Origin: Bemisia tabaci
Taxonomy: Eukaryota; Arthropoda; Insecta; Hemiptera; Aleyrodidae
Assembly: GCF_918797505.1 (NCBI RefSeq)
Contig: NC_092800.1
Location: forward strand, 8,086,631-8,150,630
Reading direction: 5' to 3'
DNA length: 64,000 bases
A model generated the notes under the pieces. It worked only from the letters and a program-made list of their open reading frames with translations. It made no database searches and was not told where the DNA came from. This document shows positions 27,574 through 42,789 of this stretch, piece by piece; position 1 is the stretch's first letter, and the number at the start of each line of letters is the position of its first letter. The translations under genes and the position numbers were made by a program.

Positions 27574-28079
27574 TTTTGAACAATTACTGTTACTATACAC
27601 AATCACTATTTGAACAAATTTATATTGTGGCCGCGGAGTAAATTAAACAGGTGTAAATTAATGTACATTTCTCACTCAAGTAGTATGAAAATGGCGACTT
27701 GAGAACAGTAAATTATCCAACAGCGTTGCATGATTGTGCAGAAAAATAGGAATTAAATTACAGCGTTGTATAGGGATTATTGTTCAATATGGCAACGCTG
27801 TAAGGAAGAAAGTATTGCATGTTGCCCCTTCAATATGCGGGTTATGCAATCGTGTATTAATGCCCCTTCATTTTTCGGGTTATGCAATGGTGTATTTTTC
27901 AAGATGGCGCAGCAGTGTTGCCGAACGGGGCACGTAAATAAATGATTTATTTATTGGTGAAATTTTGCAACATTGCATTTTACAGTGTTGCCAGGTGGGG
28001 CGAGAAATTAGTTGATTTTTCCGTACACTGTTGCCAGATTGTGCAAAAAATTCGGATTTTCGGACTTGTAAAAATTTTC

Positions 28080-28375
28080 GGTTTCGAGAGACCGTATCTT
28101 GCAGTATGGGTCGGTATCAGATACTGTAGATTAGGGTCTGATTCGGTAAAATTGAAAATTTTCGGAAAATCACCCTCGTCCGATCCGCCGCGGATCGATT
28201 CGATTCTTTTCCATAATCGAAGATCGGAAAACTGTACGGACCGAATTTCGATACGAGTTTTGGTTTTCGAGATTTCGGACTTGTAAAATTTTTCGGTTTC
28301 GAAAGACCGTATCTTGCAGTATGGGCCTGGTATCTGATACTGTAGATTAGGGTCTGATTCGGTAATTTCAAATTT
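28080..28375. repeat. Internal direct repeats in the left TIR
   Basis: Two ~90-bp copies about 200 bp apart share CGGTTTCGARAGACCGTATC and GATACTGTAGATTAGGGTCT. They are mirrored at ~42095-42400 in the right arm. Function unknown; position between integrase and terminus suggests subterminal protein-binding or replication sequence (inference). Confidence 0.7.
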
Positions 28376-28433
28376 TGTACTAGTGTGCGCTTGGAATGGA
28401 TATTGCAATGTTCCGTTTGACGAATCAAAAATT

Positions 28434-28439
28434 TTTATT
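28434..28439 (-). promoter_or_regulatory. PolyA signal for left integrase
   Basis: AATAAA on the minus strand ~165 nt after the integrase stop, mirrored by 42017-42022. Confidence 0.55.
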
Positions 28440-28478
28440 GGATATTTACAGTTACAGTTACAGTTTCAAACAGTTCGC

Positions 28479-28596
28479 GTTTAGAAAACGCAAACACGTT
28501 TTGAAAACGCAAACACGTTTAAAAAACGCAAACACGTTTAGAAAACGTAAACACGTTTAAAAAACGCAAACACGTTTAGAAAACGCAAACACGTTG
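28479..28596. repeat. 19-bp minisatellite, six units (left TIR)
   Basis: Unit ACGCAAACACGTTTAGAAA with small changes, just beyond the integrase stop. Confidence 0.85.
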
Positions 28597-28604
28597 CATA
28601 TTAT

Positions 28605-29549
28605 TTATACGAAATCCTTACTATCGATCCAACTATTGTGACTCGCGTCCAGACCCAACCATTTGACAAAGACCTGGTTTTTCTTGCGACGCAGAATTTT
28701 TTCCACCAGGAACGTATCTTTATAGTTGGTGGGTTGGAGTTCTTCGCGGTAGAATTTTCCTTTGATGATCGTATCGTGTGCGTCTTTCAGATCGTACGTG
28801 ATCGGAACGGTGGGATTGACGCTGACAATCTTGAAAATTTCCGTGCTCCAATTCGGTGTGTATCCTTTCTCGAACATGGCTTTGAGTCTCGAGATCCGGA
28901 CGTGATCACCGACATTCAGTTTTCGTCTGGCCAGACGTCTCTTTTCATTTTTACTCAGCGGCGGTCCACGAAGCTTTTGCAGGATCATCGGTACATCCTT
29001 TTCGGTGACATCGATTGGTTTCATACCGATGGTGCGATGAACGCTCCCGTTATATTCACGGATGAGTTTCGGTAATAGATCTACCCACTTGTACGATCCT
29101 TGCGCGCTGAACTCTTTCCACATCTTCGTTTTGAGCGTTCGATTGAATCGCTCCACAATAGAGGCTTTGGTTGTCGAGTACGAGCTGTACATATTGATAT
29201 GGTGACGCTTCATCAATGCCTGACATTTGGAGTTGTAGAATTCCGAGCCCATATCGACTTGTAAATGTTTCGGTGACTTTCCGGCTGCTTTGAGAACGCG
29301 TTGCAGAGCAAGAGTGACATCGGTGGCCGTTTTTGATTTGAGCGGTTCGGCCCACGCCTTTTTCGAGCACGCGTCGATGACGGTGAGGAGATATCTGTAT
29401 CCTTTGTTGACCGAGGCGTACGGTTGCATCTCGACGAGATCGGCTTGCCATAAATCGAACAATCCGAGAATCCGTACTTTACGACGCGGATAGTTTCGTC
29501 GTGCAGGTTTATGTAGCTCCTCGACGATCCCACGTTTTTCTGCCGACAT
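28605..29549 (-). CDS. Polinton integrase (DDE, chromodomain-like tail), left copy
   Basis: Encodes 314 residues starting MSAEKRG. It would catalyse strand transfer of element ends into host DNA, giving the observed 6-bp duplication. The retroviral-type core shows DLWQADL (Asp37), QVDMGSEF (Asp99) and ASIVERFNR (Glu133), a D,D(33)E arrangement, with the conserved ERFNRTLK and NGSVHRTIGMKP blocks after it. The last ~40 residues (FLVEKILRRKKNQVFVKWLG...SWIDSKDF) resemble a chromodomain, seen in Polinton and some LTR-element integrases and thought to guide target choice. No frameshift or stop; only a few residues differ from the right copy (LALQ/FALQ, WLGLD/WLSLD). Reads outward toward the left terminus. 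Confidence 0.93.
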   Translation of the reverse strand: MSAEKRGIVEELHKPARRNYPRRKVRILGLFDLWQADLVEMQPYASVNKGYRYLLTVIDACSKKAWAEPLKSKTATDVTLALQRVLKAAGKSPKHLQVDMGSEFYNSKCQALMKRHHINMYSSYSTTKASIVERFNRTLKTKMWKEFSAQGSYKWVDLLPKLIREYNGSVHRTIGMKPIDVTEKDVPMILQKLRGPPLSKNEKRRLARRKLNVGDHVRISRLKAMFEKGYTPNWSTEIFKIVSVNPTVPITYDLKDAHDTIIKGKFYREELQPTNYKDTFLVEKILRRKKNQVFVKWLGLDASHNSWIDSKDFV

Positions 29550-29554
29550 GATAA

Positions 29555-29860
29555 TTAACGTCGACGTCGTCCGCTCTCTCGATTCAAATGCTGTTTCGTT
29601 GCTACTATTTTAACCAGACGATTGTAAGATTGCTGAAGTTGGTGGATACGCTCCAGACAGTGTTGAGCTAATTTCATGGCTTCCTTCCACTTCCGTTCGG
29701 ACCATTGTTTGTTCACCGCGTCCTCATCGCTTTCGGGATCTTGCACTTGACGAATCCGTTTGTTCGATACGATATAATTTCCGTCGGAATCCAGTGAGAA
29801 TCCGTCACCTTTTGGACCGCGGCGGAATTTCGATCGGCCAAAACCGTCCGTGTGACTCAC
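29555..29860 (-). CDS. Small Polinton protein, paralogue 2, left copy (start lost)
   Basis: 101 codons, nearly identical to 40555-40860, but the start is GTG (GCGGTGAGTCAC) where the right copy has ATG. Normal initiation is therefore doubtful. Residues GDGFSLDSDGNYIVSNKRIR followed by QDPESDEDAVNKQW recall the GNxDxxxxRIxxxxDPxxxxDAVNK motif of viral and phage fibre-type proteins (resemblance only). The C-terminal half is helical and basic. Confidence 0.7.
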   Translation of the reverse strand: MSHTDGFGRSKFRRGPKGDGFSLDSDGNYIVSNKRIRQVQDPESDEDAVNKQWSERKWKEAMKLAQHCLERIHQLQQSYNRLVKIVATKQHLNRESGRRRR

Positions 29861-29867
29861 CGCAACA

Positions 29868-30203
29868 CTATTTTCCTTTCATTCGATTCACAACCTCTAA
29901 TTGACTGATTCTATTTTCCAGTCGTGATAATTTCGTCTCGAGTCGTTGCGCGATACTTTTGTATTCTTCCATTTTCTCCAAACAAAGCTGTGTCGAATTC
30001 ATAGCTTCCGTCCACCTCGAGTCTGTCCATTGTTTGTTCACAGCGTCGGTATCCTCTTCGGGATCTTGCAGTTGTCGGATCCGTTTGTTGGATACGAGAT
30101 AATTTCCGTCCGGATCCAGTAAGAAACCGTCACCTTTGAGACCTTGCTTCGTGTTGCGAACGTAAGTTCCTTTCGATCTTCCAAACCGGTCGGTGTGACT
30201 CAT
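29868..30203 (-). CDS. Small Polinton protein, paralogue 1, left copy
   Basis: 111 residues from ATG at 30203 (MSHTDRFGRSKG). It contains GDGFLLDPDGNYLVSNKRIR and DPEEDTDAVNKQW, then a coiled-coil-like tail (KLSRLENRISQLEVVNRM). Paralogous to the next gene downstream, from which it is separated by 7 nt. Function unknown; structural role plausible. Confidence 0.8.
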   Translation of the reverse strand: MSHTDRFGRSKGTYVRNTKQGLKGDGFLLDPDGNYLVSNKRIRQLQDPEEDTDAVNKQWTDSRWTEAMNSTQLCLEKMEEYKSIAQRLETKLSRLENRISQLEVVNRMKGK

Positions 30204-30222
30204 TTTTGTGCGGAACCTATAT

Positions 30223-31254
30223 TTAGTGGATGTAATCCGCTTCACGAAGCTCTTCGACGATACTCAGAATTTCACGATCGTGATCGGTGTGACCAGCTTG
30301 TTTCGAAGCTACAAGTAAAACGAGACGTTGGACCAATTCGTTCGGATCGTCCCAATAGACGAGTTCCCGTTTCGCACGGTGAATTTTGATACCGGAGCCT
30401 TTCTTCAGTTTTTTACGCGATGACTTCCTCGTTGATCTCGGAGTAGATGTAGCGAACAAAGGTTTGATGAGATCGCGGTATTTTTGACTGCGGTTCGAGT
30501 TGGGTCTACCGTGTGGATGGTGATTCCTCCAATGCGCATTGGTGAGCGTAACTACTCGTTGGAAATTAGCACGATCATCTGCTGTGTAATTACGCGGATG
30601 TTTCTTGAAAATGAGCTCCAAGAACCCGGGTGTCGGTTCGAACACCTCATCGCCACCGTCCAAGATTAGTCGTCCGTCCGAATCGAAACTTATGGTTCGG
30701 TTTCCGATAAGATAGTTTCCGTTGATCGCTTTCCGCACACCATACGTGGTATCGGATTGTTTCGGTTGTTTCTCCAGATCGTCCAAGTAGAACTGTACGT
30801 GCGGGGCAGTGATTGTGTTTCGAGAATCGACGTCGTCGTCTTCTGTGCGACTCGTTGTTTGTTCTTTACCCGTTGCATCTTGGAACGATTCATCATCATC
30901 ATCATCATCATCATCCTCCTTTGAATCGTCATCATCATCATCATCATCGTTGTTTATATTTTTCGGTGATCCGAACGAAGCAAATAAACTATCAACAAAC
31001 GTTGTTCCATCTTTCGTTTCCGATTTTGAAGCTTCGATCTTGGTTTTCTTTTCCTGAGGAGCAGCGACAAGTGCGGGAGTTGACGATGTCGACACAGTTT
31101 TCTGCAACGCTGCGAGCGGATCTGTCAACGGTTTGAAAACTTTCTTCAACGTCACCTGAGCGTCCGCCTCTCCGGTGCGAATGGTATTTAACTTCCGTTT
31201 GATATCTTGACGGATTTTATCGATACTACCGTATTTCTGAGCGATCGTCGACAA
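30223..31254 (-). pseudogene. Conserved Asp-rich Polinton protein, left copy lacking its ATG
   Basis: Aligns to residues 6-348 of the right copy with isolated substitutions (STSST/SSSST, GGDE/GGAE). The TIR ends at 31261, so the initiating ATG and first codons are absent. Upstream in frame, a TGA is met within five codons. The open frame begins with TTG. Best read as a 5'-truncated duplicate created by the arm duplication. An alternative in-frame initiation codon is not obvious. Confidence 0.82.
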
Positions 31255-31261
31255 CGATAAG

Positions 31262-31543
31262 AGTCCTCAAATTCTGCTGTTTCAAAAGATTCAACTGAAT
31301 AAATAAATATTACGTCGATTAATTCGTGGCCAAAACTGTTGAGAAGAAATCAGAGGAAGGGCATGAAGGTTGGACGGAGATGAGAGACTACCTGAGCCGA
31401 GCCGGTGCGGAGGAGTCTCGGACCCGCACAAGGGGCTTCGGTTGGGGTCTAAACGGGATTTCACAATCCACGCGGGGTTTGGGAATATGCGCCCCGGCTA
31501 TCAGAGCAAGGAGTACCAAATTTTGAAAAGGATAACAGGGGTA
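31262..31543. other. Unique segment between left TIR and inner inverted repeat
   Basis: Overlapping ORFs on both strands (for example a plus-strand frame reading GFGNMRPGYQSKEYQILKRI) have no recognised relatives. It may be a remnant of the lost left-hand genes or of an insertion. Confidence 0.4.
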
Positions 31544-31934
31544 TGGAGATCTGTCAAAGCAACGTTTTAAACAAAACGAAGAAGTGAAATTCTCATTCAA
31601 CGAGTGCCGACGTGATCAGCCATCCTCGAATCAGTTCGCTTGCTTCTGCTTATATGTGCATATTTTAAATCAGCGCGTCGCATTCTAAGGTTTTTTTAAG
31701 AAAAACCAAGTAACGTAGACTCTGGGTATTCATTACACATAAACTAGAGAGCCCCAGAATGAGAAACAACTTTAAATCATGATTATTGACGGATAAATAA
31801 ACTTTTTACACGCTTTTGAAAATCTCAGAAGTTCGCGGTAGTCACTTTTCGGTAAGGAACTAAGGGACTCGGTTATTGTATCGAGTGGGGGGTCGAAACG
31901 ATCGCAAAGGCGGTATACTACGTATACGCGCCAA
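31544..31934. repeat. Inner inverted repeat, left arm (391 bp)
   Basis: Reverse complement of 33413-33803 with scattered differences. Begins TGGAGATCTGTC and ends GTATACGCGCCAA. The mirrored arm contains a TATATAA box (CATATATAAGCAGAAGC), so the arms may be promoter-bearing, for example an LTR or transposon end. Confidence 0.85.
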
Positions 31935-33412
31935 AAATGGCAACTTAGGAAGCACATAGGTCACTTTATGATGCGTATTCGGGCATATGCGTAGAGTAAA
32001 AATATCATACTTTACGCCGAAAAAACGAAACTGAAAGTTAAATGCGTTAACTTCCAAAAACCATACATAATCAAACGAAAATAAATAATTGGTAAATAAC
32101 AGCTTTCTTGTATGCAAAGAAAAAAAATTAAAAATGTTAAAAAAGAGATGTCGACACAAAAAAACATAGCCCCTTCAATTCTGAAGATACTACAAACGAA
32201 CTGTACCTTAAAATTTTCATATCCCAGAAGCAAAAGTTCCCATGACGAATATTGCTATCGCTAGCGATTGCAAAAACCAACTTGTTCTGTTTTTAATGCA
32301 ATTTACTTACTGAACACCTTTTATAAATTATATTTTCTAAAATGTTCAACATGAAATAGGTGTAATTTTCTTCTTTCGTTTGAAATCTTTGAGCATGCAG
32401 TGCTTGCCTTGTTTATCCGGACCGCACGGCACTGCGATGCACAAAAAAAGTAATCACTGTATGTCCCCCTACCGTAGCAATAAGAGAGTTTGAAAAAAAT
32501 TCGTGTCTACGCGCTCTCTATAATAACTCGTCCAGGGAAGCAAATAATCTTTGCGACAAAAGGGTTATGCCAAGCTTTAAAAATCTTATTTTTTACAGAA
32601 CGCAGACATCGTCTAATTGGATATATAGCGCACCATCGCCAACTCCGGCGACTTTTCAATGTTTAAACCATCAAGCCGACAACGTCGGCGAGTCAATCAC
32701 GCTGTTTGGTAGCGGGGTGGTTCACTTGCCGTTCGGTTGCGACTTGATGGGCGAATCATTATAATTAGACGCGATGGAAGCTTTCACAACAGGGGATGAT
32801 ACACATCTCCGTCCTGAGGGTGACGAAATGAGCGTTTTCGATATCTTTCGGGATAGACCGTAGCGTCGTAAAAAACCCACAAAACAACCCTGTCTCCACA
32901 GCTCCAGCTCATAAAAGCACCTGTCTCGCGACGGTTTACAAACCGAGAGGGTCGCGCTCGCCCTCGTCCGGCAGTGAGCCCTGCTACGCTACATTCTTAT
33001 GGGTCTCGGGGCTCATATCTTCATGCACATAGTTCTATTTGACACAAATACGACCAAGTCTACGGCAGTCATTTTTATGATCAAAAGTTAACCGTTCAGG
33101 GTTAGCTGGGAACTCATTTAATTTTTAATCAATAATTTAAAAACAGTCGAGGGTTCAGGTGCTTTACGCCTTTGGTCGTATCCCTCAGAACTCAGATCTT
33201 GAAAAGAATTTACGACCTGATGGCTGTGACACAGAGCAGGTAGGAAGTAAAAGTTGACCTATCCAATTAATTAACGTGCACTTCGAATCTACCGTGGTTA
33301 GAGGTTTATTATGAGAAAGGAGATGCTGATATTGATATCATCGAAGAACAGTGTTGCAGCATGTAAGAACATTGACGGACAAAATTGTGATCGGAGAGGA
33401 TCTGAATCTATC
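31935..33412. other. Spacer of the inner inverted repeat (1478 bp)
   Basis: Apart from the possible Env fragment, no gene was identified. AT-rich on the left, with a GC-richer part near 32870-33020 containing no clear ORF. Confidence 0.5.
32567..32764 (+). pseudogene. Possible Env/F-type glycoprotein fragment
   Basis: A 65-codon frame contains SSNWIYSAPSPTPATFQC, a ~17-residue gap, then LFGSGVVHLPFGCDLMGE. The W-I-Y...C...GSG...LP.GC spacing resembles the C-terminal ectodomain of baculovirus-F-like Env proteins of insect retroelements. There is no membrane anchor, fusion peptide or upstream homology. The stretch TTATTTTTTACAG before residue TQTSS could be a splice acceptor. Recognition is from pattern only. 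Confidence 0.35.
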
Positions 33413-33803
33413 TTGGCGCGTATACGTAGTATACCGCCTTTGCGATCGTTTCGAACCCCGCTCGATACAATAACCGAGTCCCTTAGTTCCTTACCGAAAA
33501 GTGACTACCGCGAACTTCTGAGAGTTTCCAAAGCATGTAAAAAGTTTATTTATCCGTCAATAATTATGATTTAAAGTTGTTTCTGATTCTGGGGCTTTCT
33601 AGTTTATGTGCAGTGAATACCAAGAGTCTACGTTACTTTGTTTTTTTAAAAAAAGCCTAAGAGTACGACGCGCTGATTTAAAATATGCATATATAAGCAG
33701 AAGCAAGCGAACTGATTCCAGGATGACTGACCAGTTCGGCACTTTAAGAATGAGAATTTCACTCACTCCGTTTTGTTCAAAACGTTGCTCTGACAGATCT
33801 CCA
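33413..33803. repeat. Inner inverted repeat, right arm (391 bp)
   Basis: TTGGCGCGTATACG...GACAGATCTCCA, abutting the start of the 164-bp satellite. Contains CATATATAAGCAG at ~33690. Confidence 0.85.
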
Positions 33804-33812
33804 CACGGAAAC

Positions 33813-36800
33813 AAAAACGAACGGAGAGCGAGAGTGGGAAATCCCTCGTATAGTCCAGCGTTCGTTAGCGTTACCAGGCATAACGTGCAAGCGACACTGC
33901 GCGACATTGTGAAAACTGGCCCTAATCATAGGGTAGGCTCCTGCATGGCGGTCAGAAGCCTTTCGAAGGGACGAACAGAAACGAACGGAGAGCGAGAGTG
34001 GGAAATCCCTCGTATAGTCCAGCGTTCGTTAGCGTTACCAGGCATAACGTGCAAGCGACACTGCGCGACATTGTGAAAACTGGCCCTAATCATAGGGTAG
34101 GCTCCTGCATGGCGGTCAGAAGCCTTTCGAAGGGACGAACAGAAACGAACGGAGAGCGAGAGTGGGAAATCCCTCGTATAGTCCAGCGTTCGTTAGCGTT
34201 ACCAGGCATAACGTGCAAGCGACACTGCGCGACATTGTGAAAACTGGCCCTAATCATAGGGTAGGCTCCTGCATGGCGGTCAGAAGCCTTTCGAAGGGAC
34301 GAACAGAAACGAACGGAGAGCGAGAGTGGGAAATCCCTCGTATAGTCCAGCGTTCGTTAGCGTTACCAGGCATAACGTGCAAGCGACACTGCGCGACATT
34401 GTGAAAACTGGCCCTAATCATAGGGTAGGCTCCTGCATGGCGGTCAGAAGCCTTTCGAAGGGACGAACAGAAACGAACGGAGAGCGAGAGTGGGAAATCC
34501 CTCGTATAGTCCAGCGTTCGTTAGCGTTACCAGGCATAACGTGCAAGCGACACTGCGCGACATTGTGAAAACTGGCCCTAATCATAGGGTAGGCTCCTGC
34601 ATGGCGGTCAGAAGCCTTTCGAAGGGACGAACAGAAACGAACGGAGAGCGAGAGTGGGAAATCCCTCGTATAGTCCAGCGTTCGTTAGCGTTACCAGGCA
34701 TAACGTGCAAGCGACACTGCGCGACATTGTGAAAACTGGCCCTAATCATAGGGTAGGCTCCTGCATGGCGGTCAGAAGCCTTTCGAAGGGACGAACAGAA
34801 ACGAACGGAGAGCGAGAGTGGGAAATCCCTCGTATAGTCCAGCGTTCGTTAGCGTTACCAGGGCATAACGTGCAAGCGACACTGCGCGACATTGTGAAAA
34901 CTGGCCCTAATCATAGGGTAGGCTCCTGCATGGCGGTCAGAAGCCTTTCGAAGGGACGAACAGAAACGAACGGAGAGCGAGAGTGGGAAATCCCTCGTAT
35001 AGTCCAGCGTTCGTTAGCGTTACCAGGCATAACGTGCAAGCGACACTGCGCGACATTGTGAAAACTGGCCCTAATCATAGGGTAGGCTCCTGCATGGCGG
35101 TCAGAAGCCTTTCGAAGGGACGAACAGAAACGAACGGAGAGCGAGAGTGGGAAATCCCTCGTATAGTCCAGCGTTCGTTAGCGTTACCAGGCATAACGTG
35201 CAAGCGACACTGCGCGACATTGTGAAAACTGGCCCTAATCATAGGGTAGGCTCCTGCATGGCGGTCAGAAGCCTTTCGAAGGGACGAACAGAAACGAACG
35301 GAGAGCGAGAGTGGGAAATCCCTCGTATAGTCCAGCGTTCGTTAGCGTTACCAGGCATAACGTGCAAGCGACACTGCGCGACATTGTGAAAACTGGCCCT
35401 AATCATAGGGTAGGCTCCTGCATGGCGGTCAGAAGCCTTTCGAAGGGACGAACAGAAACGAACGGAGAGCGAGAGTGGGAAATCCCTCGTATAGTCCAGC
35501 GTTCGTTAGCGTTACCAGGCATAACGTGCAAGCGACACTGCGCGACATTGTGAAAACTGGCCCTAATCATAGGGTAGGCTCCTGCATGGCGGTCAGAAGC
35601 CTTTCGAAGGGACGAACAGAAACGAACGGAGAGCGAGAGTGGGAAATCCCTCGTATAGTCCAGCGTTCGTTAGCGTTACCAGGCATAACGTGCAAGCGAC
35701 ACTGCGCGACATTGTGAAAACTGGCCCTAATCATAGGGTAGGCTCCTGCATGGCGGTCAGAAGCCTTTCGAAGGGACGAACAGAAACGAACGGAGAGCGA
35801 GAGTGGGAAATCCCTCGTATAGTCCAGCGTTCGTTAGCGTTACCAGGCATAACGTGCAAGCGACACTGCGCGACATTGTGAAAACTGGCCCTAATCATAG
35901 GGTAGGCTCCTGCATGGCGGTCAGAAGCCTTTCGAAGGGACGAACAGAAACGAACGGAGAGCGAGAGTGGGAAATCCCTCGTATAGTCCAGCGTTCGTTA
36001 GCGTTACCAGGCATAACGTGCAAGCGACACTGCGCGACATTGTGAAAACTGGCCCTAATCATAGGGTAGGCTCCTGCATGGCGGTCAGAAGCCTTTCGAA
36101 GGGACGAACAGAAACGAACGGAGAGCGAGAGTGGGAAATCCCTCGTATAGTCCAGCGTTCGTTAGCGTTACCAGGCATAACGTGCAAGCGACACTGCGCG
36201 ACATTGTGAAAACTGGCCCTAATCATAGGGTAGGCTCCTGCATGGCGGTCAGAAGCCTTTCGAAGGGACGAACAGAAACGAACGGAGAGCGAGAGTGGGA
36301 AATCCCTCGTATAGTCCAGCGTTCGTTAGCGTTACCAGGCATAACGTGCAAGCGACACTGCGCGACATTGTGAAAACTGGCCCTAATCATAGGGTAGGCT
36401 CCTGCATGGCGGTCAGAAGCCTTTCGAAGGGACGAACAGAAACGAACGGAGAGCGAGAGTGGGAAATCCCTCGTATAGTCCAGCGTTCGTTAGCGTTACC
36501 AGGCATAACGTGCAAGCGACACTGCGCGACATTGTGAAAACTGGCCCTAATCATAGGGTAGGCTCCTGCATGGCGGTCAGAAGCCTTTCGAAGGGACGAA
36601 CAGAAACGAACGGAGAGCGAGAGTGGGAAATCCCTCGTATAGTCCAGCGTTCGTTAGCGTTACCAGGCATAACGTGCAAGCGACACTGCGCGACATTGTG
36701 AAAACTGGCCCTAATCATAGGGTAGGCTCCTGCATGGCGGTCAGAAGCCTTTCGAAGGGACGAACAGAAACGAACGGAGAGCGAGAGTGGGAAATCCCTC

Positions 36801-37244
36801 GTATAGTCCAGCGTTCGTTAGCGTTACCAGGCATAACGTGCAAGCGACACTGCGCGACATTGTGAAAACTGGCCCTAATCATAGGGTAGGCTCCTGCATG
36901 GCGGTCAGAAGCCTTTCGAAGGGACGAACAGAAACGAACGGAGAGCGAGAGTGGGAAATCCCTCGTATAGTCCAGCGTTCGTTAGCGTTACCAGGGCATA
37001 ACGTGCAAGCGACACTGCGCGACATTGTGAAAACTGGCCCTAATCATAGGGTAGGCTCCTGCATGGCGGTCAGAAGCCTTTCGAAGGGACGAACAGAAAC
37101 GAACGGAGAGCGAGAGTGGGAAATCCCTCGTATAGTCCAGCGTTCGTTAGCGTTACCAGGCATAACGTGCAAGCGACACTGCGCGACATTGTGAAAACTG
37201 GCCCTAATCATAGGGTAGGCTCCTGCATGGCGGTCAGAAGCCTT
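33813..37244 (+). repeat. Satellite array, ~21 copies of a 164-bp unit
   Basis: The block AGAGTGGGAAATCCCTCGTA recurs at 164-bp steps from ~33828 to ~37110. Units look essentially identical to the eye. Two units (starting near 34818 and 36951) carry the same extra G (CCAGGGCAT instead of CCAGGCAT) and are exactly 13 units apart. The 80-codon frames repeated across the array end in each unit because 164 is not a multiple of three; they are not genes. The array ends in GAAGCCTT, fused directly to the 3' end of the protease gene. Confidence 0.96.
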
Positions 37245-37598
37245 GTACGAGCCATTCTAAACATCGTTTCCCGCAGACGCTCGAGTTGAAATTTTGTTCG
37301 CTATCATAATTGTATCCTATTGTCGTCGTTGAGCTACCGCGTGAGCGTAAAATGTATCGCGTAATTTCAACGGGTGGTGGTAAATCACCGAAGCTGTCGT
37401 AGTACAATGCATTGCCGCTCTTTGAAATCCGGTATGCTGTCCAATGTGTACCGACTCCATCGCTTCGGTCCAGATTGATGATACCACACTCGGGACGTTT
37501 GGGTTTCTTGGTCGCCAATTCATCGATCATGAACACACCTGGAAATGCGGGATTCGTAATTGTTCTGTCGCAGCGATGCTCAACTCAACATCCGTCAT
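37234..37598 (-). pseudogene. Adenain-like cysteine protease, frameshifted and 3'-truncated
   Basis: In Polintons this protease is thought to process capsid precursors. The catalytic frame (37536-37234) shows GTHWTAY (His), YYDSFGDLPPP (Asp), a Gln in DSEQNFN and SVCGKRCLEW (Cys), i.e. the whole C5-family set. Two breaks are visible. The N-terminal part, starting with an ATG at 37598 and 23 nt past the PLA2 gene stop, is in a different frame and runs into a stop near 37530, implying a 1-nt frameshift around 37540. At the 3' end the gene runs into the 164-bp satellite, which supplies the stop a few codons after the catalytic Cys, removing the usual C-terminal region. Probably inactive. Confidence 0.85.
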
Positions 37599-37621
37599 CG
37601 CTCGGCGCGGTAGCTCACGGA

Positions 37622-38371
37622 TCAGTTTAAATTCTTACGGTAAGGTCTCAAGTAAAGTCCGTAACCTTTACGGTACGGTCGCAAGTACAATCCTTCACCG
37701 AGGTGTACGTTCTTCTTCAAAGATCCGTCGATGACAGTCTTGATCATTTTCGCTACCGGTGTGATTGTTCGCGCGGCCAGACCGATACTCGTCAGGAGAT
37801 TCTTGACTCCGGCACCCGTCTTCGGGATAGCCAAGATTCGCTCCGCCGGTTTCTTCTTCTTCTTCTTCGACGCTCCGGCACCCATCTTTGGGAGAGCCAA
37901 GATTCGTTCGATCGACCGCTCCACCGGTTTCGTCTTCTTCTTCGACGCTCTCTTCTTCTTCTTCTTGGGTTTCGGTTTTTTCGCTGCCACCGTCTTGTTT
38001 AGTCCCATTCCGAGTTTGGCTTTGAGTTTCATAGCGTTCGTTACGGCGTATGCTGCCGCTCTTTCACCCAACGATGAGTCGGACGCTTTCACACGTTCCC
38101 AAGCTCTGTCGGCAAGTATGAGATCGGCTTTGTTCCTCTCGGTGGTGTCTTTGGTCTTACTGTAAGCGATGTCGTGGGACTTGCAAGCTTCGTCGAGCGG
38201 ATTTATACCCGGATCTCCGCGTTTCAATCGTTCTGCGAGGCGAGTGCCCGGTCCGCAGTACCTGTAGTCGCCCGGTAAGTGTAGTTCGAACGGTAGTGAA
38301 TTTATCAACGAGTTTAACAGTCCACGTCCTCGATTGGTTTTGCTGCAAGTTGATGTTCTTCTCGGTGACAT
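37622..38371 (-). CDS. PLA2-domain structural-type protein
   Basis: 249 residues from ATG 38371. Residues ~33-75 hold a parvovirus VP1-like phospholipase A2 signature: Ca-binding loop YCGPGT (38-43), GINPLDEACK, then catalytic His-Asp in SHDIAY (66-67). Such domains help particles breach membranes in parvoviruses; here the role is inferred. Next comes a helical stretch (AAAYAVTNAMKLKAKLGMG), a very basic region (KKPKPKKKKKRASKKK, likely nuclear/DNA-binding), two copies of RILA(L/I)PK(M/T)GAG, a hydrophobic helix (LLTSIGLAARTITPVAKM) and a duplicated tail motif GLYLRPYRK. Divergent from the ATPase gene across 77 bp. Intact. Confidence 0.88.
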   Translation of the reverse strand: MSPRRTSTCSKTNRGRGLLNSLINSLPFELHLPGDYRYCGPGTRLAERLKRGDPGINPLDEACKSHDIAYSKTKDTTERNKADLILADRAWERVKASDSSLGERAAAYAVTNAMKLKAKLGMGLNKTVAAKKPKPKKKKKRASKKKTKPVERSIERILALPKMGAGASKKKKKKPAERILAIPKTGAGVKNLLTSIGLAARTITPVAKMIKTVIDGSLKKNVHLGEGLYLRPYRKGYGLYLRPYRKNLN

Positions 38372-38448: not shown

Positions 38449-39153
38449 ATGCGACTCGTCAAGCAAAGAAAGTCACTGCGAGTCCGGAACCTCGACAAAC
38501 GGAAGAAGCAAAATGAAAACCGACGACAACGACGACGACACAGTGAACTGTTACCGAACAGTATCCGTTGCATTGTCGTTGGACCGTCCAACTGCGGTAA
38601 AACAAACGTGATGGTTTGCTTGCTACAACATCCGAACGGATTGAAGTTCCGCAACGTGTACTTGTACTCCAAGACACCGTTCCAACCCAAGTACGAAGAA
38701 CTGCGTCAGATATTCGACGGAATCGACGGTCTCGGATACAACGTCTATTCGGACACGGCCGAGATTGTTCCACCCAACGATGCCGCATCAGACTCGGTCT
38801 TCATTTTCGATGATGTCGCTTGTGACAAACAAAATGCGATGCGGGAATATTTCAGTATGGGAAGACACAGCTCGGTCGACAGTTTCTACTTGTGTCAAAC
38901 TTATTCTCGCATACCGAAACAATTGATTCGCGATAACGCTAACCTGCTCGTAGTTTTCAAACAGGACAATGCAAACTTGCGACACATCTACGACGATCAC
39001 GTCAACACAGATTTCACGTTCGAAGATTTCAGACACATCTGCTCGGTGTGCTGGCAGGACAAGTACGGGTTTTTAGTCATCGATAAAGATAGTAATAAGA
39101 ACGAGGGAAGGTACCGGAAAGGCTTCGATACTTTTATTGAACAAGATGGATAA
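38449..39153 (+). CDS. Genome-packaging ATPase (FtsK/HerA, A32-like)
   Basis: 234 residues; uses ATP hydrolysis to move DNA into capsids in related viruses. The basic N-terminus (KRKKQNENRRQRRR) is followed by Walker A GPSNCGKT (45-52), the PNGLKFRNVYLYSKT block, Walker B SVFIFDD (116-122) and the sensor-like FYLCQTYSRIPKQLIRDNAN. Length fits the family. Intact. Its last codons overlap the next gene (ATG at 39146) by 8 nt, and the right TIR begins immediately after its stop. It is thus the only replication/packaging-type gene in the unique region that is clearly complete. Confidence 0.93.
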   Translation: MRLVKQRKSLRVRNLDKRKKQNENRRQRRRHSELLPNSIRCIVVGPSNCGKTNVMVCLLQHPNGLKFRNVYLYSKTPFQPKYEELRQIFDGIDGLGYNVYSDTAEIVPPNDAASDSVFIFDDVACDKQNAMREYFSMGRHSSVDSFYLCQTYSRIPKQLIRDNANLLVVFKQDNANLRHIYDDHVNTDFTFEDFRHICSVCWQDKYGFLVIDKDSNKNEGRYRKGFDTFIEQDG

Positions 39154-40192
39154 CTTATCGTTGTCGACGATCGCTCAGAAATACGGTAGTATCGATAAAA
39201 TCCGTCAAGATATCAAACGGAAGTTAAATACCATTCGCACCGGAGAGGCGGACGCTCAGGTGACGTTGAAGAAAGTTTTCAAACCGTTGACAGATCCGCT
39301 CGCAGCGTTGCAGAAAACTGTGTCGTCGTCGTCAACTCCCGCACTTGTTGCTGCTCCTCAGGAAAAGAAAACCAAGATCGAAGCTTCAAAATCGGAAACG
39401 AAAGATGGAACAACGTTTGTTGATAGTTTATTTGCTTCGTTCGGATCACCGAAAAATATAAACAACGATGATGATGATGATGATGACGATTCAAAGGAGG
39501 ATGATGATGATGATGACGATGATGAATCGTTCCAAGATGCAACGGGTAAAGAACAAACAACGAGTCACACTGAAGACGACGACGTCGATTCTCGAAACAC
39601 AATCACTGCCCCGCACGTACAGTTCTACTTGGACGATCTGGAGAAACAACCGAAACAATCCGATACCACGTATGGTGTGCGGAAAGCGATCAACGGAAAC
39701 TATCTTATCGGAAACCGAACCATAAGTTTCGATTCGGACGGACGACTAATCTTGGACGGTGGCGCTGAGGTGTTCGAACCGACACCCGGGTTCTTGGAGC
39801 TCATTTTTAAGAAACATCCGCGTAATTACACAGCAGATGATCGTGCTAATTTCCAACGAGTAGTTACGCTCACCAATGCGCATTGGAGGAATCACCATCC
39901 ACACGGTAGACCCAACTCGAACCGCAGTCAAAAATACCGCGATCTCATCAAACCTTTGTTCGCTACATCTACTCCGAGATCAACGAGGAAGTCATCGCGT
40001 AAAAAACTGAAGAAAGGCTCCGGTATCAAAATTCACCGTGCGAAACGGGAACTCGTCTATTGGGACGATCCGAACGAATTGGTCCAACGTCTCGTTTTAC
40101 TTGTAGCTTCGAAACAAGCTGGTCACACCGATCACGATCGTGAAATTCTGAGTATCGTCGAAGAGCTTCGCGAAGCAGATTACATCCACTAA
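39146..40192 (+). CDS. Conserved Asp-rich Polinton protein, right copy (intact)
   Basis: 348 residues from ATG 39146 (MDNLSLSTIAQKYG). The N-terminal third is helical (KIRQDIKRKLNTIRTGEA). The centre has two runs of eight Asp encoded by GATGAT repeats (~39465-39530). The C-terminal half contains YGVRKAINGNYLIGNRTISF, TPGFLELIFKKHPRNYT, a basic stretch (RSTRKSSRKKLKKGSG) and YWDDPNELVQRLVLLVASKQ...IVEELREADYI. These blocks are common in uncharacterised arthropod Polinton proteins (recollection, not searched); biochemical role unknown. The GAT repeats make it prone to length change, yet both arms have the same length. Confidence 0.85.
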   Translation: MDNLSLSTIAQKYGSIDKIRQDIKRKLNTIRTGEADAQVTLKKVFKPLTDPLAALQKTVSSSSTPALVAAPQEKKTKIEASKSETKDGTTFVDSLFASFGSPKNINNDDDDDDDDSKEDDDDDDDDESFQDATGKEQTTSHTEDDDVDSRNTITAPHVQFYLDDLEKQPKQSDTTYGVRKAINGNYLIGNRTISFDSDGRLILDGGAEVFEPTPGFLELIFKKHPRNYTADDRANFQRVVTLTNAHWRNHHPHGRPNSNRSQKYRDLIKPLFATSTPRSTRKSSRKKLKKGSGIKIHRAKRELVYWDDPNELVQRLVLLVASKQAGHTDHDREILSIVEELREADYIH

Positions 40193-40211
40193 ATATAGGT
40201 TCCGCACAAAA

Positions 40212-40547
40212 ATGAGTCACACCGACCGGTTTGGAAGATCGAAAGGGACTTACGTTCGCAACACGAAGCAAGGTCTCAAAGGAGACGGTTTCTTACTGGA
40301 TCCCGACGGAAATTATCTCGTATCCAACAAACGGATCCGACAACTGCAAGATCCCGAAGAGGATACCGACGCCGTGAACAAACAATGGACAGACTCGAGG
40401 TGGACGGAAGCTATGAATTTAGCACAGCTTTGTTTGGAGAGAATGGAAGAATACAAAAGTATCGCGCAACGACTCGAGACGAAATTAACACGACTGGAAA
40501 ATAGAATCAGTCAACTAGAGGTTGTGAATCGAATGAAAGGAAAATAG
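40212..40547 (+). CDS. Small Polinton protein, paralogue 1, right copy
   Basis: 111 residues with ATG at 40212, 19 nt after the previous stop. N-terminal GDGFLLDPDGNYLVSNKRIR and DAVNKQW motif, C-terminal coiled coil (LETKLTRLENRISQLE). Related to the next gene; both begin MSHTD.FGRSK, indicating tandem duplication within the element lineage. Confidence 0.85.
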   Translation: MSHTDRFGRSKGTYVRNTKQGLKGDGFLLDPDGNYLVSNKRIRQLQDPEEDTDAVNKQWTDSRWTEAMNLAQLCLERMEEYKSIAQRLETKLTRLENRISQLEVVNRMKGK

Positions 40548-40554
40548 TGTTGAG

Positions 40555-40860
40555 ATGAGTCACACGGACGGTTTTGGCCGATCGAAATTCCGCCGCGGTC
40601 CAAAAGGTGACGGATTCTCACTGGATTCCGACGGAAATTATATCGTATCGAACAAACGGATTCGTCAAGTGCAAGATCCCGAAAGCGATGAGGATGCGGT
40701 GAACAAACAATGGTCCGAACGGAAGTGGAAGGAAGCCATGAAATTAGCTCAACACTGTCTGGAGCGTATCCACCAACTTCAGCAATCTTACAATCGTCTG
40801 GTTAAAATAGTAGCAACGAAACAGCATTTGAATCGAGAGAGCGGACGACGTCGATGGTAA
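40555..40860 (+). CDS. Small Polinton protein, paralogue 2, right copy
   Basis: 101 residues with a proper ATG at 40555 (the left copy has GTG). Same motif series as paralogue 1 but with a shorter, basic C-terminus ending RRRW. Its end lies within the 5' end of the integrase reading frame (ATG possible at 40854). Confidence 0.85.
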   Translation: MSHTDGFGRSKFRRGPKGDGFSLDSDGNYIVSNKRIRQVQDPESDEDAVNKQWSERKWKEAMKLAQHCLERIHQLQQSYNRLVKIVATKQHLNRESGRRRW

Positions 40861-40865
40861 TTATC

Positions 40866-41810
40866 ATGTCGGCAGAAAAACGTGGGATCGTTGAGGAGCT
40901 ACATAAACCTGCACGACGAAACTATCCGCGTCGTAAAGTACGGATTCTCGGATTGTTCGATTTATGGCAAGCCGATCTCGTCGAGATGCAACCGTACGCC
41001 TCGGTCAACAAAGGATACAGATATCTCCTCACCGTCATCGACGCGTGCTCGAAAAAGGCGTGGGCCGAACCGCTCAAATCAAAAACGGCCACCGATGTCA
41101 CTTTTGCTCTGCAACGCGTTCTCAAAGCAGCCGGAAAGTCACCGAAACATTTACAAGTCGACATGGGCTCGGAATTCTACAACTCCAAATGTCAGGCATT
41201 GATGAAGCGTCACCATATCAATATGTACAGCTCGTACTCGACAACCAAAGCCTCTATTGTGGAGCGATTCAACCGAACGCTCAAAACGAAGATGTGGAAA
41301 GAGTTCAGCGCGCAAGGATCTTACAAGTGGGTAGATCTATTACCGAAACTCATCCGTGAATATAACGGGAGCGTTCATCGCACAATCGGGATGAAACCAA
41401 TCGATGTCACCGAAAAGGATGTACCGATGATCCTGCAAAAGCTTCGTGGACCGCCGCTGAGTAAAAATGAAAAGAGACGTCTGGCCAGACGAAAACTGAA
41501 TGTCGGTGATCACGTCCGGATCTCGAGACTCAAAGCCATGTTCGAGAAAGGATACACACCGAATTGGAGCACGGAAATTTTCAAGATTGTCAGCGTCAAT
41601 CCCACCGTTCCGATCACGTACGATCTGAAAGACGCACACGATACGATCATCAAAGGAAAATTCTACCGCGAAGAACTCCAACCCACCAACTATAAAGATA
41701 CGTTCCTGGTGGAGAAAATTCTGCGTCGCAAGAAAAACCAGGTCTTTGTCAAATGGTTGAGTCTGGACGCGAGTCACAATAGTTGGATCGATAGTAAGGA
41801 TTTCGTATAA
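40866..41810 (+). CDS. Polinton integrase (DDE, chromodomain-like tail), right copy
   Basis: 314 residues from the ATG shared with the left copy (40866); an upstream in-frame ATG at 40854 would add MVII. Asp37, Asp99 and Glu133 catalytic residues are all present, as is the C-terminal chromodomain-like block. Uninterrupted. Last of a tightly spaced plus-strand series starting with the ATPase, with gaps or overlaps of under 20 nt, and followed by a polyA signal at 42017. Confidence 0.94.
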   Translation: MSAEKRGIVEELHKPARRNYPRRKVRILGLFDLWQADLVEMQPYASVNKGYRYLLTVIDACSKKAWAEPLKSKTATDVTFALQRVLKAAGKSPKHLQVDMGSEFYNSKCQALMKRHHINMYSSYSTTKASIVERFNRTLKTKMWKEFSAQGSYKWVDLLPKLIREYNGSVHRTIGMKPIDVTEKDVPMILQKLRGPPLSKNEKRRLARRKLNVGDHVRISRLKAMFEKGYTPNWSTEIFKIVSVNPTVPITYDLKDAHDTIIKGKFYREELQPTNYKDTFLVEKILRRKKNQVFVKWLSLDASHNSWIDSKDFV

Positions 41811-41822
41811 ATAATAATATGC

Positions 41823-41976
41823 AACGTGTTTGCGTTTTCGAAACGTGTTTGCGTTTTCAAAACGTGTTTGCGTTTTCGAAACGTGTTTGCGTTTTCGAAA
41901 CGTGTTTGCATTTTCGAAACGTGTTTGCGTTTTCGAAACGTGTTTGCGTTTTCGAAACGTGTTTGCGTTTTCTAAA
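41823..41976. repeat. 19-bp minisatellite, eight units (right TIR)
   Basis: Unit CGTGTTTGCGTTTTCGAAA, starting ~12 nt after the integrase stop. The unit resembles the left-arm unit but differs at shared positions, so the repeats have been homogenised separately in each arm. Confidence 0.88.
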
Positions 41977-42016
41977 CGCGAACTGTTTGAAACTGTAACT
42001 GTAACTGTAAATATCC

Positions 42017-42022
42017 AATAAA
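42017..42022 (+). promoter_or_regulatory. PolyA signal for right integrase
   Basis: CCAATAAAAATTTTTG ~207 nt after the stop; same sequence as in the left arm. Confidence 0.55.
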
Positions 42023-42789
42023 AATTTTTGATTCGTCAAACTGTTGAACATTGCAATATCCATTCCAAGCGCACACTAGTACAAAATTTGAAATTACCGA
42101 ATCAGACCCTAATCTACAGTATCAGATACCAGGCCCATACTGCAAGATACGGTCTTTCGAAACCGAAAAATTTTACAAGTCCGAAATCTCGAAAACCAAA
42201 ACTCGTATCGAAATTCGGTCCGTACAGTTTTCCGATCTTCGATAGCGTAAAAGAATCGCATCGGTCCGCGCCGAATCGGACGAGGGTGATTTTCCGAAAA
42301 TTTTCCAATTTCCCGAATCAGACCCTAATCTTCAGTATCCGATACCGACACATACTGCAAGATACGGTCTCTCGAAACTGAAAAATTTTACAAGTCCGAA
42401 AATCCGAATTTATCGCACAATCTGGCAACAGTGTACGGAAAAATCAACTAATTTCTCGCCCCACCTGGCAACACTGTAAAATGCAATGTTGCAAAATTTC
42501 ACCAATAAATAAATCATTTATTTACGTGCCCCGTTCGGCAACACTGCTGCGCCATCTTGAAAAATACACCATTGCATAACCCGAAAAATGAAGGGGCATT
42601 AATACACGATTGCATAACCCGCATATTGAAGGGGCAACATGCAATACTTTCTTCCTTACAGCGTTGCCATATTGAACAATAATCCCTATACAACGCTGTA
42701 ATTTAATTCCTATTTTTCTGCACAATCATGCAACGCTGTTGGATAATTTACTGTTCTCAAGTCGCCATTTTCATACTACTCACTCACAA

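Follow-up and report, generated by a model that had tools for sequence, protein, structure and literature searches.

A decayed chimeric Polinton/Maverick element with two integrase ends in Bemisia tabaci, from a family that probably forms mirror genomes repeatedly

Results

Arms and termini of the window element

The 64,000-nucleotide stretch of the Bemisia tabaci genome analyzed here (the window; RefSeq assembly GCF_918797505.1, contig NC_092800.1, positions 8,086,631 to 8,150,630) contains an old, decayed chimera of a Polinton/Maverick element, which has two integrase ends and host DNA inside. The best explanation we can offer, and one that we consider probable, is that the element belongs to a family that repeatedly forms mirror genomes, a strand of a linear copy folding back or switching to another copy before the product is integrated. 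Alignment recovers two inverted arms (27679-31261 and 39154-42780; 3627 aligned columns with 65 substitutions and 44 gap columns), each with an open integrase frame, two small paralogues and a gene for an Asp-rich protein, as had been proposed by a first-pass annotation that a model made from the letters of the window and that described 3.6-kb gene-bearing terminal repeats. The terminal 366 bp of the arms show no differences, 18 substitutions fall in the next 171 bp inward (28045-28215), and divergence in the coding part is ~1.3%. The element starts with AGTAGTATG and ends with the complement of AGTAGTATG, and directly outside both termini lies a perfect 6-bp duplication, CACTCA (by eye, in the printed flanks); AGT..ACT ends and a 6-bp target-site duplication (TSD), by which we recognized Polinton/Maverick elements, are thus both present. 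The features of the ends and arms, including the terminal inverted repeats (TIRs), are as follows.

27673..27678: TSD CACTCA, left; same 6 bp outside both termini
42781..42786: TSD CACTCA, right; same 6 bp outside both termini
27679..28044: outermost TIR, left; 366 bp identical to the right end
42415..42780: outermost TIR, right; counterpart of 27679..28044
28045..28215: inner TIR stretch, left; 18 substitutions relative to the right arm
28478..28595: 19-bp tandem repeats, left, 6.2 copies
41823..41978: 19-bp tandem repeats, right, 8.2 copies
28605..29549, minus strand: integrase (rve), left copy, frame open
40854..41810, plus strand: integrase (rve, PF00665 6.5e-14, by Pfam), right copy, frame open
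29555..29860, minus strand: small paralogue B, left, GTG replacing ATG
40555..40860, plus strand: small paralogue B, right
29868..30203, minus strand: small paralogue A, left
40212..40547, plus strand: small paralogue A, right
30223..31261, minus strand: Asp-rich gene, left, start lost at the joint 31261/31262
39146..40192, plus strand: Asp-rich gene, right; DUF8207 (PF26634) in relatives

The first-pass annotation had also noted that the left Asp-rich copy is cut before its start and that a left paralogue has an altered start, and both observations hold: the joint at 31261/31262 removes the former, and paralogue B has GTG on the left and ATG on the right. It also drew attention to an arm limit that coincides with the ATPase stop codon. 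The sequence confirms this, and it arises because the ATPase and Asp-rich genes overlap, the joint falling 8 bp inside the Asp-rich gene. A Pfam search with the window's Asp-rich protein gave no match above a cut-off.

These termini bear on the idea that two elements inserted independently in opposite orientation and were truncated toward each other, leaving native host DNA between them. Such a history would account for the 2.5 kb of ordinary host repeats between the halves and for arms that differ in origin (see below); however, it needs a chance match of the 6-bp flanks (1 in 4096) as well as 366 identical outer bases, in a TIR that differs by ~4-8% from that of most other copies, and we regard it as very unlikely.

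Origin of the two arms

We compared 14 blocks running from the integrase to the Asp-rich gene, drawn from 11 loci. The window arms differ from each other by 12.8 per kb, and the corresponding values are 2.6 and 1.5 for the C10 and C2 mirror elements described below; the right window arm lies 6.8 per kb from standard copies L031 and L033, and the left arm 9.1 from L031. At 21 of the 34 differing coding-block sites both alleles occur in other copies (family polymorphisms), private changes number eight on the left and five on the right, and among the compared copies no allele is common to the two window arms alone. The coding codons show 21 synonymous and 11 non-synonymous differences (synonymous divergence dS 0.037, non-synonymous divergence dN 0.005, p 1.4e-7); with start codons counted, the polymorphic sites divide into 15 synonymous and five non-synonymous, and the private sites into six and seven. 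The shared polymorphisms and the mostly synonymous changes indicate that most differences predate the joining of the arms and arose in lineages subject to coding constraint. The left arm therefore most likely came from another variant of the family, not from the right arm.

This runs counter to the model of the first-pass annotation, in which the left arm is a decayed, derived copy of the right arm of the same element. In favor of that model are the same gene order in both arms, the two starts lost on the left, and the result of the approximately unbiased (AU) test, in which constraining the two window arms as a clade cost 12.5 log-likelihood units with p-AU 0.15; the clade is not rejected and the tree by itself leaves the origin of the arms unsettled. 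Against it stand the distance between the arms, each of which is at least as close to other copies, and the alleles, private changes and mostly synonymous differences just described; we judge the model quite improbable.

Standard siblings and gene-bearing mirrors

A genome search with the left arm (40 of 664 first-look candidates scored) yielded 40 integrase ends at 37 loci, and one with a stretch of the PolB end (36 of 309 candidates scored) yielded 36 loci. A PolB end in the same orientation lies within 25 kb of 23 of these integrase ends and is missing from the other 17; six of the 17 sit in three loci with two inward-facing integrase ends, namely the window, C10:4267643-4277423 and C2:39936758-39951802 (the C10 and C2 mirrors). 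Five full-length standard loci, compared as fetched slices (L027/28, L029/30, L031/32, L033/34 and L035/36), all have a single integrase end, TIR matches of ~0.4-0.9 kb and PolB at the opposite end (PF03175 in L028, L030, L032, L034 and L036). That full-length elements would have short TIRs with polB on one side had been predicted from the window, and the case that would have spoken against the prediction, 3.6-kb TIRs in all siblings, was not found, TIRs being below 1 kb in all five. Given these siblings, the second integrase end of the window is an anomaly. Standard copy L031 and the C2 mirror both encode a double-jelly-roll capsid protein (PF21738, 6.7e-51). The full PolB-side frames of L030, L032, L034 and L036 gave no Pfam PolB match, and their C-terminal halves alone matched PF03175 at ~1e-24; the ~500-residue N-terminal half that precedes the polymerase has weak zinc-finger matches.

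The C2 mirror is an element of ~15.1 kb with arms of ~7.5 kb and the TSD GGTAAA on both sides. Its arms are 99.88% identical across one stretch of 5047 bp, apart from small gaps and a block of 19-bp repeats missing from the left arm, and they are sisters in the tree (support 100/100). Each holds the integrase, the two paralogues, the Asp-rich gene, the ATPase, a phospholipase-A2-like gene, the protease region and a capsid-length frame, whose identity as capsid protein comes from the left arm. The fold lies on ATATAAAT/ATTTATAT, an 8-nt inverted repeat of standard copies, with a 28-nt loop. The C10 mirror (~9.8 kb, arms of 4.8 kb, TSD TACTCC on both sides) folds on CGGTAGC/GCTACCG (7 nt), where the phospholipase-A2-like and protease genes meet, the loop being 137 nt. 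Both fold joints are unique in the genome, and in 200,000 random joints simulated on one standard copy inverted homology of at least 7 nt arose in 0.066% and of at least 8 nt in 0.025%.

Near-identical arms, a short loop and a fold on an inverted repeat, the features by which we identified snap-backs, are thus found together at C2 and C10. The window has arms of different origin with 7.9 kb between them, and joints with 0-2 nt of homology (by eye). The terminal inversion-duplication proposed from the window does occur in this family, in the mirrored arms of C2 and C10, but is unsupported for the window itself. We read the fold points of C2 and C10 as the mark of snap-back priming during strand-displacement replication of linear DNA, the C2 arrangement being the putative product of a fold within one molecule.

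Matched target-site duplications and a coding-free palindromic lineage

A genome search with the 164-bp unit that forms an array in the window element, in which all 39 candidates were scored, brought up palindromes at C5 and C99. The C5 palindrome has arms of 7072 bp with 99.94% identity, a 677-bp spacer, Polinton TIRs and the TSD GCCATC; no stop-to-stop frame in its left half exceeds 172 codons, and protein comparison of the element with the standard genes tested gave no match. Compared with six 10-kb slices of standard loci, the C5 body has one match, of 347 bp, in L028 beyond the element's end and near another TIR copy. A genome search with the C5 body (26 of 9062 candidates scored) revealed a palindromic lineage that, among the matches listed, is present as inverted pairs at at least 13 loci and as singles at at least three; at least six pairs are full-length and 99-100% identical to the query, and in one pair (C12) the copies are 17.5 kb apart.

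TIRs and TSDs of this lineage were covered at six near-identical pairs (C5, C3, C2, C9, C1 and C99). Together with the gene-bearing loci, eight of the nine mirror loci tested have a matched 6-bp TSD (CACTCA in the window, TACTCC at C10, GGTAAA at C2, GCCATC at C5, TGCGTA at C3, ATAATT at C2 near 47 kb, AGCCAG at C9 and AACTTT at C1), the duplication at C99 being unmatched; mirrors therefore integrate as units. In mirrors with matched TSDs the first 36 bases are the same at both ends and different between copies (termini of L039/L040 and L045-L052), and we infer that the palindromic lineage moved as a palindrome. The termini of the palindromic copies look as if the ends were equalised at each replication.

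The same counts bear on an assembly artefact, by which mirrored reads or misjoined copies would have created the arrangement. Assembly is difficult for palindromes and near-identical repeats, and some standard copies have unmatched TSDs. An artefact would, however, mirror the flanks too, and the flanks differ while the TSDs match at nearly all mirror loci; the window arms, moreover, carry their 65 substitutions between them. We find this explanation hardly credible, both it and independent insertions being unlikely in view of the matched TSD of the window element and the identity of its outermost 366 bases.

Interior of the window element

Between the arms we found the following features.

31262..33806: host genomic DNA, a mosaic of abundant whitefly repeats
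33810..37242: array of the 164-bp unit, ~21 copies
37243..37621, minus strand: protease remnant (by motif and gene order)
37622..38371, minus strand: phospholipase-A2-like protein (PF08398, by Pfam)
38449..39153, plus strand: packaging ATPase, Pox_A32 type (PF04665 3.3e-8, by Pfam)

Among the frames of the element there is no PolB and no double-jelly-roll or major capsid protein; the copy in the window derives from the family by deletion and is not a complete Polinton/Maverick member. The remnant at 37243..37621, which from its motif and gene order we take to be the protease, gave no Pfam match above a cut-off as an adenovirus-type protease and its frame is broken near the N-terminus; its C-terminal side is cut by the array, and its longest open stretch is 114 codons, compared with 134-137 in five sibling loci. 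The joint between the left arm and the host DNA, on the Asp-rich gene side, has 0 nt of microhomology and that between array and protease ~2 nt of homology (both by eye). Parts of 31262..33806 had no other match among the scored candidates, and an abundant whitefly repeat of ~450 bp occurs twice in inverted orientation inside the element (31491-31937 and 33413-33806; 3820 first-look candidates for the stretch).

In the siblings the 164-bp unit is sited at the PolB-end TIR, and the window array is a recent expansion at a misplaced site. Most of its ~21 units (33810-37242) are identical, compared with a handful of units at the sibling PolB-end TIR. A simple internal deletion joining the array to the protease region was rejected because an array belonging to the PolB end of the right half would be expected in the opposite orientation. 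The unit also occurs, in mirrored orientation, at integrase-end TIRs (G000:C30:3365-3535 and C9:14141728-14142194), which suggests exchange between both TIRs of one element.

Discussion

A proposed route to mirror genomes, and its alternatives

Polinton PolB is of the protein-primed type, presumably in this family too, and Polintons are believed to copy linear genomes by strand displacement. Under the explanation that we favor, an element would replicate outside the chromosome as linear DNA by strand displacement; the 3' end of the displaced strand would then fold on a short inverted repeat, or switch to another copy, and copying back out to the same end would give a molecule with the integrase end and TIR at both ends, precisely the arrangement of C2 and C10, and the integrase would insert this molecule in its usual way with a 6-bp duplication. 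The window would represent the intermolecular version, in which ends from two variants became joined from array to protease region, the host DNA and deletions being later events. The sequences themselves show the arms, the TSDs, the position of the folds on inverted repeats and the family polymorphisms that separate the window arms; from these we infer the extrachromosomal stage, the strand switch and this order of events in the window.

Several observations weigh against this explanation. The C10 arms, 2.6 per kb apart, are sisters at 0.77 in FastTree and unresolved in IQ-TREE, and four of their seven coding-block differences are family polymorphisms; because of this weak sister support and these polymorphisms C10 may also be an intermolecular product. 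Strand switching alone does not predict that the window element should contain 2.5 kb of host DNA, and the clade of the two window arms was not rejected. None of the 36 scored PolB ends belongs to a mirror with PolB at both ends, and the TSDs tested are those of six of the 13 listed palindromic pairs, the near-identical ones as opposed to the seven diverged. The TSD is matched at one of the five standard elements and unmatched at L027/L028, L031/L032, L033/L034 and L035/L036, where the terminal sequences differ too; with the unmatched C99 mirror, this means that rearrangement between copies or assembly joins are common in this family. Finally, the extrachromosomal stage is a putative one, read from assembled sequence.

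The frequent unmatched TSDs also lend weight to a conversion after integration. By this account a standard element inserted with CACTCA, and when its PolB side later broke, the integrase end of another copy served as repair template by way of TIR homology, the break being patched with host repeat DNA and rejoined at the protease region. It accounts for the matched TSD, the identity confined to the outer 366 bp and the foreign alleles of the left arm, as well as for the lost PolB and a host DNA joint that is blunt, and exchange between copies seems frequent, with unmatched TSDs in four of the five standard elements. Such signs of exchange, common among standard copies, make it a serious rival for the window. 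It nevertheless requires several steps, and leaves unexplained both the folds of C2 and C10 on inverted repeats of the same element and the palindromic lineage (paired at at least 13 loci among the matches listed); on balance we think it unlikely, if well worth keeping in view.

Beyond the formation of mirrors by fold-back or switch, we tentatively advance a broader idea that could well prove wrong, that snap-back genomes may be a regular product of Polinton replication and themselves mobile. The coding-free palindromic satellite, with its at least 13 listed loci and at least six near-identical copies, would have been spread by the standard element's integrase and polymerase, like a defective-interfering lineage fixed in the genome, and gene-bearing mirrors such as C2 would, if transcription crossed the fold, yield long hairpin RNAs, which could feed RNA silencing of the parent.

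Relation to known systems

Snap-back defective genomes and fold-back duplications are known, and what seems new here is the mirror forms in Polintons; among the titles listed by our literature searches on Polintons, none reports them. Adeno-associated virus (AAV) uses rolling-hairpin replication from a single-stranded genome. Adenovirus, with its protein-primed, strand-displacing linear replication, gives defective genomes with one end duplicated in inverted orientation, which are not known to be integrated as units. Foldback transposons combine long inverted repeats with a mobile element and, unlike the whitefly case, are not known to be mirrors of a Polinton integrase end.

In a study of vertebrate Polinton/Maverick elements (PMC8097293), TIRs of intact elements measure 46-1447 bp (mean 402) and the end motif is (AGT)2//(ACT)2, with which the window ends AGTAGT/ACTACT agree; also alike are the rve integrase and A32-type ATPase in the window, the capsid and PolB in the siblings and the 6-bp TSD. 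Compared with the elements described there, the whitefly integrase end is duplicated in inverted orientation, with arms of 3.6-7.5 kb. AAV snapback genomes are double-stranded and hold one parental end, either end being possible (PMC8235507); the whitefly product shares the configuration with one parental end and differs in that it is integrated with a TSD and that, among coding mirrors, those of the integrase end alone were found. Fold-back duplications of human chromosomes have 2-8 bp of inverted microhomology and an unduplicated spacer of 766-70,466 bp (PMC3907307). The short inverted microhomology at the joint and the unduplicated spacer are shared with the whitefly mirrors, whereas the human cases are chromosome-end events after a break and the whitefly spacers measure 28 and 137 nt within a mobile-element TSD (PMC3907307). 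Teratorn has a piggyBac-like transposase and 18-bp TIRs (PMC6431247); it resembles our elements as a mobile element with long inverted repeats and is not a Polinton integrase-end mirror.

Free, linear, virus-like replication of Polintons before integration has so far been inferred mostly from their genes. A mirror with a fold repeat of 7-8 nt and a matched TSD would be a sequence fossil of this extrachromosomal stage, countable in any long-read assembly. The whitefly loci also suggest that multi-kilobase gene-bearing terminal repeats can form in one step, and that a Polinton family can carry coding-free palindromes.

Searches outside the whitefly genome gave no close relatives among viral contigs with a single-protein query, and an integrase alignment against viral contigs gave eight loci at 27-29% identity over 115 residues, which were not used. 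Phage records gave no match. In prokaryote genomes two loci (L001 and L002, integrase 36-44% identity) were found in a bacterial metagenome-assembled genome and not used; their contigs are filed under Ignavibacteria and are possibly eukaryotic contamination. A DUF8207 protein with 78% identity to that of the window (P0125) is filed as Capsicum chinense on a contig of 1715 bp, and is probably whitefly DNA in a pepper assembly.

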